Positions 36,026 to 43,808 of a DNA stretch of 64,000 bases are shown here, piece after piece (positions within the stretch are counted from its first letter, which is position 1; every line of letters begins with the position of its first letter). The translations under genes and the position numbers were made by a program. The notes beneath the pieces are model-generated. The model was not told where the DNA came from and ran no database searches. It worked only from the letters and a program-made list of their open reading frames with translations. Source of the DNA: Caldicellulosiruptor acetigenus (lineage in GTDB: Bacteria; Bacillota; Thermoanaerobacteria; Caldicellulosiruptorales; Caldicellulosiruptoraceae); the NCBI RefSeq assembly GCF_026914305.1, contig NZ_CP113866.1:2360001-2424000 (forward strand). Reading direction: 5' to 3'.

Positions 36026-37291
36026 TTACTGTCTTTCTTGGGCTCTTCTTATTCTTACCTTGAAGAAAATCAAAACTGTGCACAAAAGGGTAAAGATTGT
36101 AGCAAGCACAAAAGGCAAACTTTTCGAAAAGGTATAACACTGCCCGGCTATTGCACCAACCGGCATTGAAAAAAGAGAGATTAAAAACATTGTGATTGAC
36201 AGAACATGCGCTCTTCTTTCATCATCAACAGAATTTGCCAAGATAGCATCAACAAATGAATAATACACTGCAGCTCCTATGCTGCCAAGCACTGTCACAA
36301 CTATCATCAAAATAAAGCCAAATGTGCCAGGCGGTGCAACCAAAATCAGAGCATTCGAAACTGTGATTGAGAGCATTCCCCAAAAAAGGACAGTGTCATG
36401 TTTTTGTTCTTTCAGATTCGGAATTAAAAATATTACAAATATAAGTGCTACTGCACTCCACAGTGTTGGAAACACCGAAATTATGCTATCTGGATAATGC
36501 AAAGCTTCACTTAAATATATGGTTTTGTACGTGTCTCTGAATATCAGAGCAACATTACCAAATATAGTAACAAGCACAATCAGCAGAAGCTCCCTGTTTT
36601 TGACCATATACTTTAGACTGTCAAACCACTCAGAAAAACCATTAGCATTAGCATCACAATTTTCCCGTGCAATCTTTTGCCCCACAGAGCTTTCAGATGT
36701 CACAAGATGTCTTACAACAATTAGTATATTTACTAAAATCCCAAACGCAAGGACTGTCCATTTAGTTGCAGGTATCAAGCCAAACCTTGCAACAAAGACG
36801 CCCATCAGGGGCGCAAAAAGGTTACCCATATTCCACACAAATACAGTTACAGAATAGATTGCCACTCTTTCGTTTTCGGTTGCATCTTCCATTAAAAGAA
36901 GTCGCCATGCAAGCTCAGGAATTCTCATAAGTCCGTTAAAGATGGTAGCAATTAAAAACCATGTAAAATCTTTTGCAAAGAAAAATATATATGCATACAC
37001 GCACCACGACAGAAAATCGCCAATTAGAAGAACCTTCTTGCGTCCAAACCTGTTCACAAGCAGTCCTGCAAATGGTGATGTGATAAGCATCACCAGGTTC
37101 AACACTGTTGACAGCAGTCCTATCTGGTAATCCTTTACTCCCACTCTTGTCATGTAAAGTGAGGAGTAGACGATAAACATGGCATAGGGAATAGTAAAAA
37201 TGGGCTCAAAAAATAGGATCTTTTTAGCGTTTGGATTTATCTCTTTGAATGCTAAAACCATCTGCTGCAGCTGTGCCTTGATTTTTGTCAT
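36026..37291 (-). CDS. Major facilitator superfamily transporter
   Basis: This 421-residue protein has twelve hydrophobic spans. The motif between spans two and three, GLLVNRFGRKKVLL near residue 78, is the MFS loop signature. The ATG at 37291 follows GAGGTGA by about 5 bases, better than the GTG at 37300. It lies on the same strand as the LacI, dehydrogenase and isomerase genes and may carry the related sugar. Substrate is not predictable. Confidence 0.88.
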   Translation of the reverse strand: MTKIKAQLQQMVLAFKEINPNAKKILFFEPIFTIPYAMFIVYSSLYMTRVGVKDYQIGLLSTVLNLVMLITSPFAGLLVNRFGRKKVLLIGDFLSWCVYAYIFFFAKDFTWFLIATIFNGLMRIPELAWRLLLMEDATENERVAIYSVTVFVWNMGNLFAPLMGVFVARFGLIPATKWTVLAFGILVNILIVVRHLVTSESSVGQKIARENCDANANGFSEWFDSLKYMVKNRELLLIVLVTIFGNVALIFRDTYKTIYLSEALHYPDSIISVFPTLWSAVALIFVIFLIPNLKEQKHDTVLFWGMLSITVSNALILVAPPGTFGFILMIVVTVLGSIGAAVYYSFVDAILANSVDDERRAHVLSITMFLISLFSMPVGAIAGQCYTFSKSLPFVLATIFTLLCTVLIFFKVRIRRAQERQ

Positions 37292-37336
37292 AAAAATCAC
37301 CTCGTATGTGCAAAACCGCTATAAATAGCAAAAAAT

Positions 37337-38157: not shown

Positions 38158-41010
38158 CTATTCAAGCTTTTTCCTTATCAATTTAATATTTTGCTCATCC
38201 TTACAGTAAAATTCATATTCACAGCCATTGCAATTTCTATCTAAAGAATCTTCAATAAGCTCAAGTACATCCTTTCTGGTTCTGATATTCCTTATTTTCT
38301 TTATCACATCAATTACATCTTCAAGGTGTTCATCTTTTTGCTCATAGTCAAACTTTTTCCCTTCTCTTAACCAGAAGATAGAAGAAAAAATATTTTTCTG
38401 TGGAAATCTTTCTTTCATTGCCATTGTGTAAATGAAAAGCTGGGGGATGTAACTACTAAACTTTGCATCATCAAAATGAAGGTTTGTTTTAAAGTCGATG
38501 AGAAAAATCTTATCTTCAAGATGGTACACCTTGTCAATTATGCCATATATCATTTGACTTCCAAGTTTAAAATAAAACCGAAGCTCACTTTCCTCTTTTA
38601 TCACTTTATCTTTGATTTCCTTTGCAAACTGACTTTCAAAAAAGTTTAAGATAAGCTCTTTCACAATCCTTTCATTCTCAAAGTCATTTTCAAGCACGGC
38701 TAAGGCAATGTTGCTATCTAAGCTTTGAATATCTTTCAAGCTTGTGAGTTCCAAAACTCTGTGAACGGTTGTGCCAAGCACTTTTGCATTTTGCTGTATC
38801 TCCTCTTTTGAGCTTTGTTCATCAAAAACTGGAAGACCCATTACATACTTTAGTGAAAACATGGCAGGGCATCTTTTAAAATCCATTATGTGCGATGGTG
38901 ACAAAAACCTAAACCTGTTTTCAAACTCGTCAGGCAAAATCACAGCAGGCAAAGCAAAAGATAGGTTATTTTCTGATCTTGAGGCAAAATCCTGCGATGT
39001 TTTTTCATCCTCTTTTATCTCCACAACTTCTTTTTCAATTCCAATCTCCTCAGCTTTTGTGAGAATATAACTCAAACCCACCTCTTCACCAAACGACTTT
39101 GCTCCCCCTCTTTTCTTTATAGCTTCTCTTAAGCTTGAGTTTATCAAGAAAAGCCCTGCCATCGGTCTTGTTATGGCAACATAAAAAAGCCTTTTAAGCT
39201 CTTCTTTTTCCTGCTGTTTTGATATATTCTTTATTCTTGTATATTCTTTTTCCATCCAAAAAGGAGCAATTATATATTCTCTTGTGCTTGTGTCATAAGA
39301 ACCTCTCAGCTTTGGGCTTCTGCCATAAAAATAACCCGTGCTTTCACAAAGTCCGACCAAAAACACTATTGGAAAGCTGAGTCCTTTTGCTGAATGTATG
39401 CTGATAAGCACTGCACTGTCATCAAGAGAAGAAAAGCTCGAAAACCTTTCGCCTTGATAATTTACATAACTGTAAAGGTCTTCTATCGAAAAGCTTTTGC
39501 TCTCTTCTGCCAAGTCGTAAAAAAGTCTGACATTTTCGTATGCACCCTTGCCAAAAAACTTATAGACCTTGTAACTATATTCGAACATATCTTCAAACTC
39601 ATACAAAATCTCTGAAATCTTTTTCACAAACAGATTATCACGCTGTTTTGCAATGAACTTTAAAACATCTTCTGGAACATAACATTCTATTTTGCTCATC
39701 TCGCAAAAGAGAAGCGTAAATCTGTCCACTTTAAATATGTCATTTGCAAGAAGTCTTAAGTACCCAGATTTTTTGTCTGGATATTGCAAAATCTCAAGAA
39801 AGCCCAAAAGCGGCACTATCTCTTTTTGCTCCAAAAGCCCTCTTTTGAAATTAATATCAAGCGGAACATCATAATCTTCAAACACCTTTTTGTAAATATG
39901 AGCAATATTTTGAATCTTTCGCGAAAGCACTGCAAAGTCAGAATATTTCACCTTTCTTTTTGGCTTGCCGCCCACACTTATCTCAAAACCACTTTCAACC
40001 ATCTCTTTTATCTTTTTTGCAACATAAATAGCTTCATTTTGAATAATCTCTTCTCTTGCTTTATTTACAATCTCCACAACCTTTAAAAATCCGTCAGCTT
40101 GATGCTTGTAAGAAAGTGGTTTGTAGTTTGGAAAAAGTATTGTGGCAATTTTATCTATCTTTTTGCCAAGTTCTGAGTTTGTTCTAAAGTTTTCACAGAG
40201 CTCTAAAACCTGGCTGCAGTTTTCTATAGCTTCATCAAAAACCTCTGGCTCTGCACCCTGGAAACGGTAAATGGACTGTTTTTTGTCTCCAACATAATAA
40301 ATGTTTTCAGCTATATTTTCAAAGATTGATTTTTGTAAAAAGTTTGAGTCTTGAAACTCGTCAACAATCAAGAATTTAAATCTGCTCTTTACATCTCTAT
40401 TTACCTCTGGAATGCTTAAAAGTTCAAAAGTCCTATGCAAAACCAAATCGTATGTGAGTTCTTTTAAAAACTGGTCATTTAACCTGTCTGATAAGTAATC
40501 GAAAACATGAAACATTTCATCTTCAAGGTGGCAAGCTTTTTCAACATACTTTGCTGAATTAAAATACTCCTGTACAATACTTTCTGCAAAGTGAAAATAC
40601 TCTTCAATGAAAAACCTCTCATGTGACAGTTTCCCCAAAGTTTCAGGATAAACTGAAAGATAATGGTCCACAAGCTTTAGTATTAGTCTATTCTGTTCAG
40701 GGACAATTTTAAAGTTTGTGTCAACCTTCGCCCATGCCCAGTAAAATCTTAAAAGATACATACAAAATGAGTGTATGGTTTTAATATGAGAGTTTTGAAT
40801 CTTTGAAATTGTGACCAAATCAAGCCATCTTTGCTTTGCTTTTGAGATTATTCTGTTTTTAAGCTCTCTTGCTGCTTTTTCAGTGTATGTTATGCAGACA
40901 ATTTCAGCTGGCAGAGCTTTTTGGGAATTTATGAGGTCTATATAAAGGTTTGCTATACTTTCTGTTTTACCACAGCCGGCAGAAGCAGTATAGATGATTA
41001 TATTGCTCAT
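38158..41010 (-). CDS. AddA-like helicase-nuclease (UvrD-fold with PD-(D/E)XK nuclease)
   Basis: The 950-residue protein combines a superfamily 1 helicase with a C-terminal nuclease, as in double-strand-break resection. Seen are Walker A TASAGCGKTES near residue 8, Walker B LIVDEFQDSNFLQKS near 210, motif V SIHSAKGLSFPIVFLVG near 540, motif VI RLFYVAITRP near 600, and nuclease motif YGIIDKVYHLE...FLIDFKTN near 850. Unlike usual AddA it also has four likely Fe-S ligands: Cys in FKRCPAMFSL and CNGCEYEFYC near the end. At 950 residues it is about 280 shorter than Bacillus AddA. It is 30 bases after an AddB-like gene. Confidence 0.85.
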   Translation of the reverse strand: MSNIIIYTASAGCGKTESIANLYIDLINSQKALPAEIVCITYTEKAARELKNRIISKAKQRWLDLVTISKIQNSHIKTIHSFCMYLLRFYWAWAKVDTNFKIVPEQNRLILKLVDHYLSVYPETLGKLSHERFFIEEYFHFAESIVQEYFNSAKYVEKACHLEDEMFHVFDYLSDRLNDQFLKELTYDLVLHRTFELLSIPEVNRDVKSRFKFLIVDEFQDSNFLQKSIFENIAENIYYVGDKKQSIYRFQGAEPEVFDEAIENCSQVLELCENFRTNSELGKKIDKIATILFPNYKPLSYKHQADGFLKVVEIVNKAREEIIQNEAIYVAKKIKEMVESGFEISVGGKPKRKVKYSDFAVLSRKIQNIAHIYKKVFEDYDVPLDINFKRGLLEQKEIVPLLGFLEILQYPDKKSGYLRLLANDIFKVDRFTLLFCEMSKIECYVPEDVLKFIAKQRDNLFVKKISEILYEFEDMFEYSYKVYKFFGKGAYENVRLFYDLAEESKSFSIEDLYSYVNYQGERFSSFSSLDDSAVLISIHSAKGLSFPIVFLVGLCESTGYFYGRSPKLRGSYDTSTREYIIAPFWMEKEYTRIKNISKQQEKEELKRLFYVAITRPMAGLFLINSSLREAIKKRGGAKSFGEEVGLSYILTKAEEIGIEKEVVEIKEDEKTSQDFASRSENNLSFALPAVILPDEFENRFRFLSPSHIMDFKRCPAMFSLKYVMGLPVFDEQSSKEEIQQNAKVLGTTVHRVLELTSLKDIQSLDSNIALAVLENDFENERIVKELILNFFESQFAKEIKDKVIKEESELRFYFKLGSQMIYGIIDKVYHLEDKIFLIDFKTNLHFDDAKFSSYIPQLFIYTMAMKERFPQKNIFSSIFWLREGKKFDYEQKDEHLEDVIDVIKKIRNIRTRKDVLELIEDSLDRNCNGCEYEFYCKDEQNIKLIRKKLE

Positions 41011-41040
41011 CTTTCGACCATCCCTCTGACTTTTTTGTTT

Positions 41041-43671
41041 TTAAAACAGAATACAAACATGGCTGTACTCACATGACATACAGTTTTTAAAAGACTGCAT
41101 CTTCTGGTAAGTTTCAATATTAGAAAGCTTTTGTATTTTTTCTTTTATACCATTTAAAATCTGTTCATTTAACTTGTCCAAAGGAACATGAGTATTCTCA
41201 TAAATAACAAATCGCGGATTTTCGAAAAGATAAATAACCGCAATCTTGTCAAGCTCAAAGATGTAAGTTGCAAGCCAAATTTTATCAATGCCTTCATTTT
41301 TAGATTCACGCCTTGCCTTTACAAACCCTAATATCTCTTCATCACCCACTTTGACAACAAAATTTGGAAATAGCTGAAGTTCAATACCTTCAACCATCTT
41401 TTTTATTACAAGCACTCTTTCTTTCATATTTTGAGGGACAAATTCTTTGACGCCATATTCAATCATTCTCTCTACAATCTCTAAGGATATCTGGATGATG
41501 TCCAAAGCTGCAAGTTTTTTCACAGGTTCATTGTGGGTATATCGAATGTTTGAAATCAGAAACCCAAGCACTTCCTCTGGCTCTTTTGACAAAAGCATCT
41601 TCTGGATACATGAAAACAGAAGCTGCAGGTTTGATAAAAAATGTTTTTCTTCTTTTTCTATCTCATCAATGTTAAACTTTTTAAATGCAAACTTAAGCGG
41701 ACAACTATCAAGTTCGATAAGCTCTCTGTCTCTTATGTAAAAAATCTCAGGAACCTGGAAAGTTCTGCAAGTTTTTTCAGTATCCTTTGTATTTATATTT
41801 TTTACAAACTTATACTCTCTATATGTCAACTTATCATCACTTGGCATGTAGCTTTTTAACACAGGTACTTCTTCAATACCTTCTAACTCTAAAAATGGGC
41901 TCATGTTTGTCTGTGTTTGGTAGTAACGGGGATATGACATATACACATCATGGGAGTTTAAAATACTTCTAAAGTGTACAAGGTCTTTTTGGAATATGTA
42001 GTCAAAATCCTTTATTTCATCAAGCATGAGCTCTTCTTTTAATCTCATGTTTCGCAAAAATCCTTCAGAATTTGAGCGTGGCAAAATATCATCTGAAAAC
42101 CCAATCAGATAAACCTTTTGATAATCAGCGCCCAGAACATCTTGAATGCTAAGAACATCAATGCCACTTAAGATATTAATCGAAACGTCAACCATCTTCT
42201 GAGAAAGAATGGTTTTAAAAATATCCAAAAACTCTTCAAAAGTAAAATCAGAATCAAATTCTTTAAAGTCTTCTTGGCCTTTTTTGAAGATCTCATTCAA
42301 ATGATAAAACGCCTTGACAAATTCAATGTCATTTACAAACTCTGCTTCTTTTGTTATACCAAGTTTTTCAAACACTTTTTTGGTCTTTTCAAGCCAGCTG
42401 ACAAATGGTTTTGGCAACTTATCATATTCATTTTTTATTCTCTTGAGCCTGTTAAAAATCCTTCTAATTTTAGTGAGGTTTTCAATCACATTATCAAACG
42501 CATACAGATTTGCAAAAAACTCCAGCTCTTCAAGCACAAATTCTATCTGTTCAAGCTCTAAAATGTTAATCTCTTTTATTTTTGTAAACAAAACCTCAAA
42601 GTCTGCGTTTTCTTTATTCAAAAACCTGTGTGATATTATTCTCTCAAAATTTTGCTTGTCAAACTCTCCGCCCAAAAACTCCAAAAGATCCAATACAAAC
42701 CTGATAAATCCAAATTCTATAAGGCTCTTCTGACAGCTAAGATTTACAGGCAGCATCTCCTCAGAAAATGTCTGCACCAGAGCATCTTTGTACCTTTCCA
42801 CACTTGGCACAACAACTGCTATCTTGTCAAAATCTATTTTTTTGTCAGAAATATCTTTTTTAATCTCCTTCACAAGAGAATTTATCTCAAGGATTATGTT
42901 TGGATAGGAATAGACTTTAAGCTGACAAGAGGTTGAGTTTAAATTAGCCGATGTATGTTCTTTATTTGTACTAAACACTATGTCAAATCCAAGCGATTCT
43001 AAAAACTTGGCAGTTTCTATGCAGATCTCAATATCATCAAAAAACGGCATGAAAACTTCTATATCAGTTATTTCCTCTGCAATAAGTTTTAGTATTCTCT
43101 TTTGGTCGCATCTGAAATCTGTAAAAAATGCTATCTTGGCAGCACTATATTCTTTAAACTCAAGTTTGTCTTCTTCAAAAAGTTTTATAGCCAAATCCTG
43201 AAGGTAGGAAAAGTTCACAAGGTTGTTTTGGTCAAGGTATTCTTTATACCTTTGAAAGAGTACTTTCAAGAAATTGTAGTTTTCGAATGCCGCTAAGTCT
43301 TTTTGAGAATACTCTTTTGACTCTAAAAACATCAAATTCAAAAGGTATATGACCTGACTCGTAAACTCGTATGTCAAAACATTTTCGAAGCTTTTCTTCC
43401 CTTTGAAAATGCTTTTGAGAAGTTGAAATACAACCAAAACCTCCTGCTCTCGTGTGATTATCTTTCGTGTCTTTAACACCTCATTTTTGGCAGGGTTTAT
43501 CAAATCATCAAATGTAAATATATCGATATCAAAAAGCACTCCGTTTTTCTCAACAAGCCTTTCTTTGAGCTTATTTATAACAAACCGGCGGGGAAGAATT
43601 ACAAGCTCATTTGACTTTGCATCATCAAGAACGCTTAAATTAAGTTTTTGCAAAAGGTATGCTCTTTTCAT
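41041..43671 (-). CDS. AddB-like partner without recognisable Walker A
   Basis: This 876-residue protein resembles AddB in its overall plan: a helicase-like core with a LSIQDVLGADYQKVYLIGF block and SDDILPRSNSE near residue 530. A late Cys set follows (LDSCPLKFAF near 655, then NCMSCEYSHVC at the end) that would bind a 4Fe-4S cluster. The N-terminus (LVILPRRFVINKL) has no GxxGxGKT loop, and the region that should hold the nuclease D-x-K motif is replaced by VGDEEILGFVKARRESK, so neither ATPase nor nuclease is evident. It would act as the structural, DNA-scanning half of a complex with the AddA-like protein. Confidence 0.75.
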   Translation of the reverse strand: MKRAYLLQKLNLSVLDDAKSNELVILPRRFVINKLKERLVEKNGVLFDIDIFTFDDLINPAKNEVLKTRKIITREQEVLVVFQLLKSIFKGKKSFENVLTYEFTSQVIYLLNLMFLESKEYSQKDLAAFENYNFLKVLFQRYKEYLDQNNLVNFSYLQDLAIKLFEEDKLEFKEYSAAKIAFFTDFRCDQKRILKLIAEEITDIEVFMPFFDDIEICIETAKFLESLGFDIVFSTNKEHTSANLNSTSCQLKVYSYPNIILEINSLVKEIKKDISDKKIDFDKIAVVVPSVERYKDALVQTFSEEMLPVNLSCQKSLIEFGFIRFVLDLLEFLGGEFDKQNFERIISHRFLNKENADFEVLFTKIKEINILELEQIEFVLEELEFFANLYAFDNVIENLTKIRRIFNRLKRIKNEYDKLPKPFVSWLEKTKKVFEKLGITKEAEFVNDIEFVKAFYHLNEIFKKGQEDFKEFDSDFTFEEFLDIFKTILSQKMVDVSINILSGIDVLSIQDVLGADYQKVYLIGFSDDILPRSNSEGFLRNMRLKEELMLDEIKDFDYIFQKDLVHFRSILNSHDVYMSYPRYYQTQTNMSPFLELEGIEEVPVLKSYMPSDDKLTYREYKFVKNINTKDTEKTCRTFQVPEIFYIRDRELIELDSCPLKFAFKKFNIDEIEKEEKHFLSNLQLLFSCIQKMLLSKEPEEVLGFLISNIRYTHNEPVKKLAALDIIQISLEIVERMIEYGVKEFVPQNMKERVLVIKKMVEGIELQLFPNFVVKVGDEEILGFVKARRESKNEGIDKIWLATYIFELDKIAVIYLFENPRFVIYENTHVPLDKLNEQILNGIKEKIQKLSNIETYQKMQSFKNCMSCEYSHVCILF

Positions 43672-43749
43672 CTTTGAGGTTTCTCCTCTCAGGAAAGATT
43701 AAATGATGGTGTGTTATATTAAGAAAATTATACTATATTTTTCTATTGA

Positions 43750-43790
43750 AAGTCAAAGAAAAATAAAGAGGCTGCTTTCGCAGCCTCTTT
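43750..43790. terminator. Strong hairpin terminator, usable in both directions
   Basis: AAAGAGGCTGC (43765-43775) pairs with GCAGCCTCTTT (43780-43790) around a TTTC loop. On the minus strand ATTTTTC follows, ending the methyltransferase-MTHFR genes before the AddB-like gene. Confidence 0.88.
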
Positions 43791-43808
43791 GCATTTTTCA
43801 TAATTATT

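Follow-up and report, generated by a model that had tools for sequence, protein, structure and literature searches.

The addB-addA locus of Caldicellulosiruptor

The window (the whole 64,000-nucleotide stretch of DNA analysed) comes from a complete genome of 2.74 Mb and contains two adjacent genes on the minus strand. The addB-like gene (41041..43671) encodes a protein of 876 aa with a helicase-like N-terminal part lacking Walker A and a C-terminal domain with four cysteines, from which the nuclease catalytic residues are gone. The addA-like gene (38158..41010) encodes a protein of 950 aa that combines an SF1A (UvrD-like) motor with a C-terminal PD-(D/E)XK nuclease. Both proteins had been called short in the first-pass annotation, and the pair (950/876 aa) is indeed shorter than the canonical AddAB of a sister genus (1250/1176 aa).

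A promoter-like site, TTGACT-18-TATAAT, which is a consensus match only (11/12), is located upstream of the addB-like gene on the minus strand (43727..43756). A bidirectional terminator-like hairpin (43764..43791), found in the sequence, lies at the boundary between the upstream metabolic genes and addB-addA. The addB stop and the addA start are separated by 30 bases (41011..41040, minus strand), purine-rich ahead of the addA ATG. The promoter-like site and the hairpin preceding the addB-like gene, together with this gap, suggest that the two genes probably form one operon.

The pair is present in all 12 Caldicellulosiruptor species examined. It is surrounded by methionine/MTHFR and sugar genes together with genes for an NrdG2-type radical SAM protein and an MFS transporter, and the gene order on the radical-SAM/MFS side is identical in 5/5 loci inspected, in metabolic surroundings. 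In the locus of genome G007 (L063, 13127-16432), two unrelated genes of the opposite strand separate addB from the MTHFR-type gene; the N-terminus of the first product resembles an ATP-binding SMC/AAA-type protein.

Motor, nuclease and cysteine residues of the two proteins

The AddA-like protein matches the Pfam families UvrD-helicase (4e-44), UvrD_C (4.7e-21) and PDDEXK_1 (5.8e-18). All motor motifs are present (Walker A ASAGCGKT, DEFQDS, GDKKQSIYRF, SIHSAKGLSF and YVAITR), as are the nuclease residues H750, D826, D839-x-K841 and Q857, and both sets are intact in 12/12 species of the genus. A 3'-5' SF1A motor joined to a PD-(D/E)XK nuclease in AddA is a feature of AddAB. The AddA profile A1 matches B. 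subtilis-type AddA at 8e-130, and the best NCBIfam match of the AddA-like protein is AddA, with a score of 174.8 bits that stays below the cut-off of 707.65. The N-terminus lies almost at Walker A (window 40960-41010), and the usual Q motif was not seen ahead of it. The N-terminus of E. coli RecB is similar.

Six of the 13 cysteines of the AddA-like protein are invariant in the 12 species: C13, which sits within Walker A, C83, C714, C927, C930 and C936. The last four are predicted ligands of an Fe-S cluster, and the C-terminal part of about 250 aa (38161..38910, minus strand) is a predicted iron-staple nuclease with intact active-site residues. The spacing C...CX2CX5C, the canonical AddB pattern, is found in both proteins. 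In the AddB-like protein, 5 of 10 cysteines are invariant in all 12 species, including C657, C864, C867 and C873, so that the four-cysteine iron-staple pattern characteristic of AddB in AddAB is retained.

The catalytic features of the AddB-like protein are absent across the genus. No Walker A was found in any of the 12 species, a conserved [DE]xK is missing, and the catalytic H, D and Q are likewise absent; the active AddB nuclease of a two-nuclease AddAB is thus lacking in the sequences of all 12. The protein matches UvrD_C in Pfam, with an additional sub-threshold Cas4-like match at residues 781-874; no PDDEXK_1 match was obtained, whereas AddB-like proteins of relatives match this family at 1e-23 to 1e-30. 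Judged by motifs, the AddA-like protein holds the sole motor and the sole nuclease catalytic site of the complex. The helicase motifs, nuclease motifs and cysteine set of the first protein and the loss of Walker A and the nuclease D-x-K from the cysteine-keeping second protein were already recorded in the first-pass annotation, and both hold genus-wide; the layout of one motor, one nuclease and two predicted Fe-S domains is also borne out by sequence.

The AddB assignment is best seen with relatives included. Profile A2, built from Caldicellulosiruptor and relatives, matches almost the whole AddB chain of the AddAB crystal structures (6e-54), whereas a profile from the genus alone reaches the solved AddB at E = 0.02 only; the score against NCBIfam AddB is 30.5 bits, under the cut-off of 903.7. 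The C-terminal 239 aa (about residues 641-876; 41044..41760, minus strand) are predicted to form an inactive domain of the iron-staple type. Its fold is inferred from the cysteine pattern, the position and the weak Cas4 match, since the genus-only profile is that faint and a profile alignment with 63 outside AddB C-terminal domains matched only the CP motif. The single-sequence fold of the domain was poor (mean pLDDT 44).

Both proteins are under purifying selection, and the AddB-like frames are intact in 12/12 species. Median dN/dS values are 0.161 and 0.147 for the two halves of the AddB-like protein, the lower value being that of its C-terminal domain. As the live AddA-like nuclease gives 0.149, the sequence comparison indicates that the C-terminal domain of the AddB-like protein is maintained, not decaying, despite its lost catalytic residues.

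Distribution of the two cysteine sets and descent of the pair

The AddA profile was searched against 398 genomes sampled evenly across the same phylum; 60 high-ranking loci from other genera were then read, in addition to 11 picked earlier. The sample was chosen by AddA similarity, and the following counts are not prevalence estimates. Outside the genus, 51 AddA proteins in the loci read carry the cysteine set, and an AddB partner could be identified for 48 of them. Walker A occurs in none of these 48 partners, while the nuclease motif is kept in 46 and the cysteine cluster in 45. In the two AddB without a nuclease motif, the reading frame is broken (L106) or the sequence is interrupted by a stretch of N (L146); in L135, the third AddB lacking the cluster, a stretch of N likewise lies at the site. 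Among the two-cysteine-set loci, L103 and L107 are closely similar, and the AddA frame of L107 stops early, before the cysteines, possibly at a frame break.

Canonical B. subtilis-type AddAB, in which AddB has Walker A and AddA lacks the cysteines, also occurs in the phylum. Walker A and the cysteine cluster are each reportedly limited to subsets of AddB. Two cysteine sets and an AddB devoid of Walker A are, on the loci compared, traits of many lineages, and the AddA set is unusual only relative to the B. subtilis type. Among the AddABs examined, the lost AddB nuclease appears as a peculiarity of this genus only. Neither the Fe-S cysteines in both subunits nor the missing Walker A of AddB, which had been taken as distinctive, sets the pair apart. 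The pair would be an ordinary one if the usual AddA of related lineages had the same cysteines or if the AddB motifs were present in diverged form; the former is often the case in the phylum, but the AddB motifs are absent, not diverged, in 12/12 species. The novelty is narrower than first proposed with respect to the cysteine sets, and firmer with respect to AddB, whose nuclease residues are gone genus-wide in a protein under selection.

The AddA of nine loci (L058, L116, L118, L122, L124, L127, L152, L154 and L155) has D[RP] in place of the CP of the cysteine set and has lost the C-terminal cysteines. On the AddA trees these proteins are spread over two or more groups, so that loss, or gain, of the AddA set may have happened repeatedly.

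The trees place the AddA of the genus on a very long branch. In the AU test, its grouping with non-canonical AddA gave p 0.446 and is neither rejected nor established. L055 (G012), the only other genus examined of the same family, has the canonical AddAB of 1250/1176 aa mentioned above, whose AddB carries Walker A and whose AddA lacks the cysteine set; the canonical and two-cysteine-set types were therefore probably exchanged within the family. An MFS gene accompanies both the Caldicellulosiruptor pair (window 36026-37300) and the AddAB of L056, a relative in the same class (418-1659). It is located two genes beyond addA in the window and beside addB in L056, and the products are 33% identical, which hints at a common locus. 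A search of genome contigs gave two distant matches, the matches on viral contigs cover mostly the helicase part only, and no match to AddB was obtained among plasmids.

Proposed role in end resection and relation to known systems

The genome encodes RecJ (569 bits) and a stand-alone RecD2 distant from the pair. No second AddB was found in it, and its remaining PDDEXK_1 matches fall within open frames that encode 339 and 172 aa. By this search, the pair is the only candidate of the RecBCD/AddAB class found in this genome. It quite probably represents an AddAB-type end-resection helicase-nuclease in which AddB has turned into a RecC-like inactive partner. The best reading of the layout is a shift towards RecB-RecC, with a single motor and a single nuclease, but with two predicted iron-staple domains and without a RecD subunit. 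The clusters are predictions from cysteine patterns, and the biochemistry outlined below is likewise deduced from sequence.

AddAB is described as an enzyme with one motor and one nuclease per strand. RecBCD is the precedent for an enzyme with one nuclease, which can serve both strands. In B. subtilis AddAB, the 3' strand is cut by the AddA nuclease and the 5' strand by the AddB nuclease, and Chi is read by the dead helicase domain of AddB (PMC4824097). The AddB cluster is needed for binding DNA ends, according to a statement in PMC4176176 that cites Yeeles 2009. If the B. subtilis layout holds, the nuclease lost in the genus would be exactly the 5'-strand trimmer.

The 3'-5' motor of AddA would unwind DNA from the broken end, and the 3' strand would pass through the dead helicase domain of AddB to the AddA nuclease. 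The dead C-terminal domain of AddB, held by its cluster, would help to keep the DNA end in place and to steer the 5' strand. Cutting would be carried out by the single AddA nuclease, as by RecB alone in RecBCD, and RecJ would perhaps trim the 5' strand. In the most likely version of this scheme, the enzyme would be RecBC-like and both strands would be handled by the AddA nuclease; the main competing version is 5' trimming assisted by RecJ. More tentatively, the pair may be a natural single-nuclease AddAB, in which the iron-staple domain of AddB now acts purely as a DNA-end clamp, and the 5' strand is removed by AddA alone or by a separate exonuclease. Such an enzyme would stand midway between AddAB and RecBC, as a member of a widespread two-cluster class of AddAB of which no description was found in the literature searched.

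In E. coli recD mutants, RecJ serves RecBC. A comparable division of labour, in which the Caldicellulosiruptor complex unwinds DNA and nicks the 3' strand only while RecJ removes the 5' strand, is a serious though not the favoured possibility. With the AddA nuclease attending to the 3' strand (PMC4824097), loss of the AddB site would leave exactly such nicking, and the genus has kept the former and lost the latter, while RecJ is encoded in this genome. However, RecJ is widespread anyway (13/14 control genomes), and the RecBCD nuclease is able to serve both strands.

It is improbable that AddB still has a nuclease too diverged to be recognised, which would make the pair an ordinary two-nuclease AddAB. 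The C-terminal domain is conserved and resembles the Cas4 profile weakly; however, in the 12 species it has neither a conserved [DE]xK nor a catalytic D or H in register, and the motif is recognisable in 46 of 48 AddB partners of cysteine-bearing AddA, the exceptions being due to a broken frame in one case and a stretch of N in the other.

A role in defence, considered in the first-pass annotation, is scarcely to be expected. A helicase-nuclease of the UvrD-Cas4 fusion kind would share the domain pair of the AddA-like protein, a UvrD motor with a cysteine-bearing Cas4-like nuclease, and such fusions adjoin type III restriction-modification genes (PMC5704561). On viral contig L199, a UvrD-Cas4-like fusion adjoins a gene resembling a type III restriction-modification methylase. 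The Caldicellulosiruptor genes, however, occur in every species of the genus examined, at a locus that keeps its order on the radical-SAM/MFS side in the five loci inspected, with metabolic neighbours and no restriction or defence gene found beside the pair; an AddB partner is present, and PADLOC matches are to generic helicase or Cas4. These features speak against a defence role. Finally, a functionless decaying AddB remnant, suggested by the lost catalytic residues and an identity below that of the AddA-like protein, is most improbable in view of dN/dS of about 0.15-0.16 in both halves, 12/12 intact frames and invariant cluster cysteines.

For the favoured reading, an end-resection AddAB with an inactive AddB, a lost 5'-strand nuclease in an Fe-S domain under strong selection would mean that the structural role of the cluster is separable from cutting. 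An enzyme of this kind throughout a genus lets the formation of 3' overhangs with one nuclease be tested directly, and the thermophile origin of the proteins should suit structural work. The survey points to a large clostridial class of AddAB with cysteine sets in both subunits, of which no description was found in the literature searched.

The known systems resemble the pair to different degrees. Like the UvrD-Cas4 fusions, it joins a UvrD-like motor to a Cas4-like nuclease with cysteines, but the fusions stand alone or adjoin type III restriction-modification genes (PMC5704561), whereas the Caldicellulosiruptor protein is paired with AddB and has no such genes nearby. AdnAB of mycobacteria is also a heterodimer of motor-nuclease proteins, but each of its subunits has a motor domain and a nuclease, and its cluster is in AdnA; from the Caldicellulosiruptor AddB both Walker A and the nuclease are missing. 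With RecBCD the pair shares the single nuclease in the RecB/AddA-type subunit and a RecC-like partner in which helicase and nuclease are both dead. It differs in that no gene for a RecD subunit lies beside it, only the distant RecD2 being present, and in the cysteine sets of both subunits, which RecB and RecC, to our knowledge, do not have.

The B. subtilis-type AddAB (3u44/3u4q; TIGR02785, TIGR02773) has the same addB-addA order, the SF1A motor and nuclease in AddA, and an AddB with a dead helicase and a C...CX2CX5C domain. In contrast to it, the Caldicellulosiruptor AddA also carries a cysteine set, AddB is without Walker A and nuclease catalytic residues, and both proteins are shorter. The two-cysteine-set AddAB of other Clostridia-type lineages (for example L056, L057, L059, L061 and L065) agrees with the pair in having the set in both subunits and an AddB without Walker A; unlike that of Caldicellulosiruptor, their AddB retains a full nuclease site, often with altered cysteine spacing.
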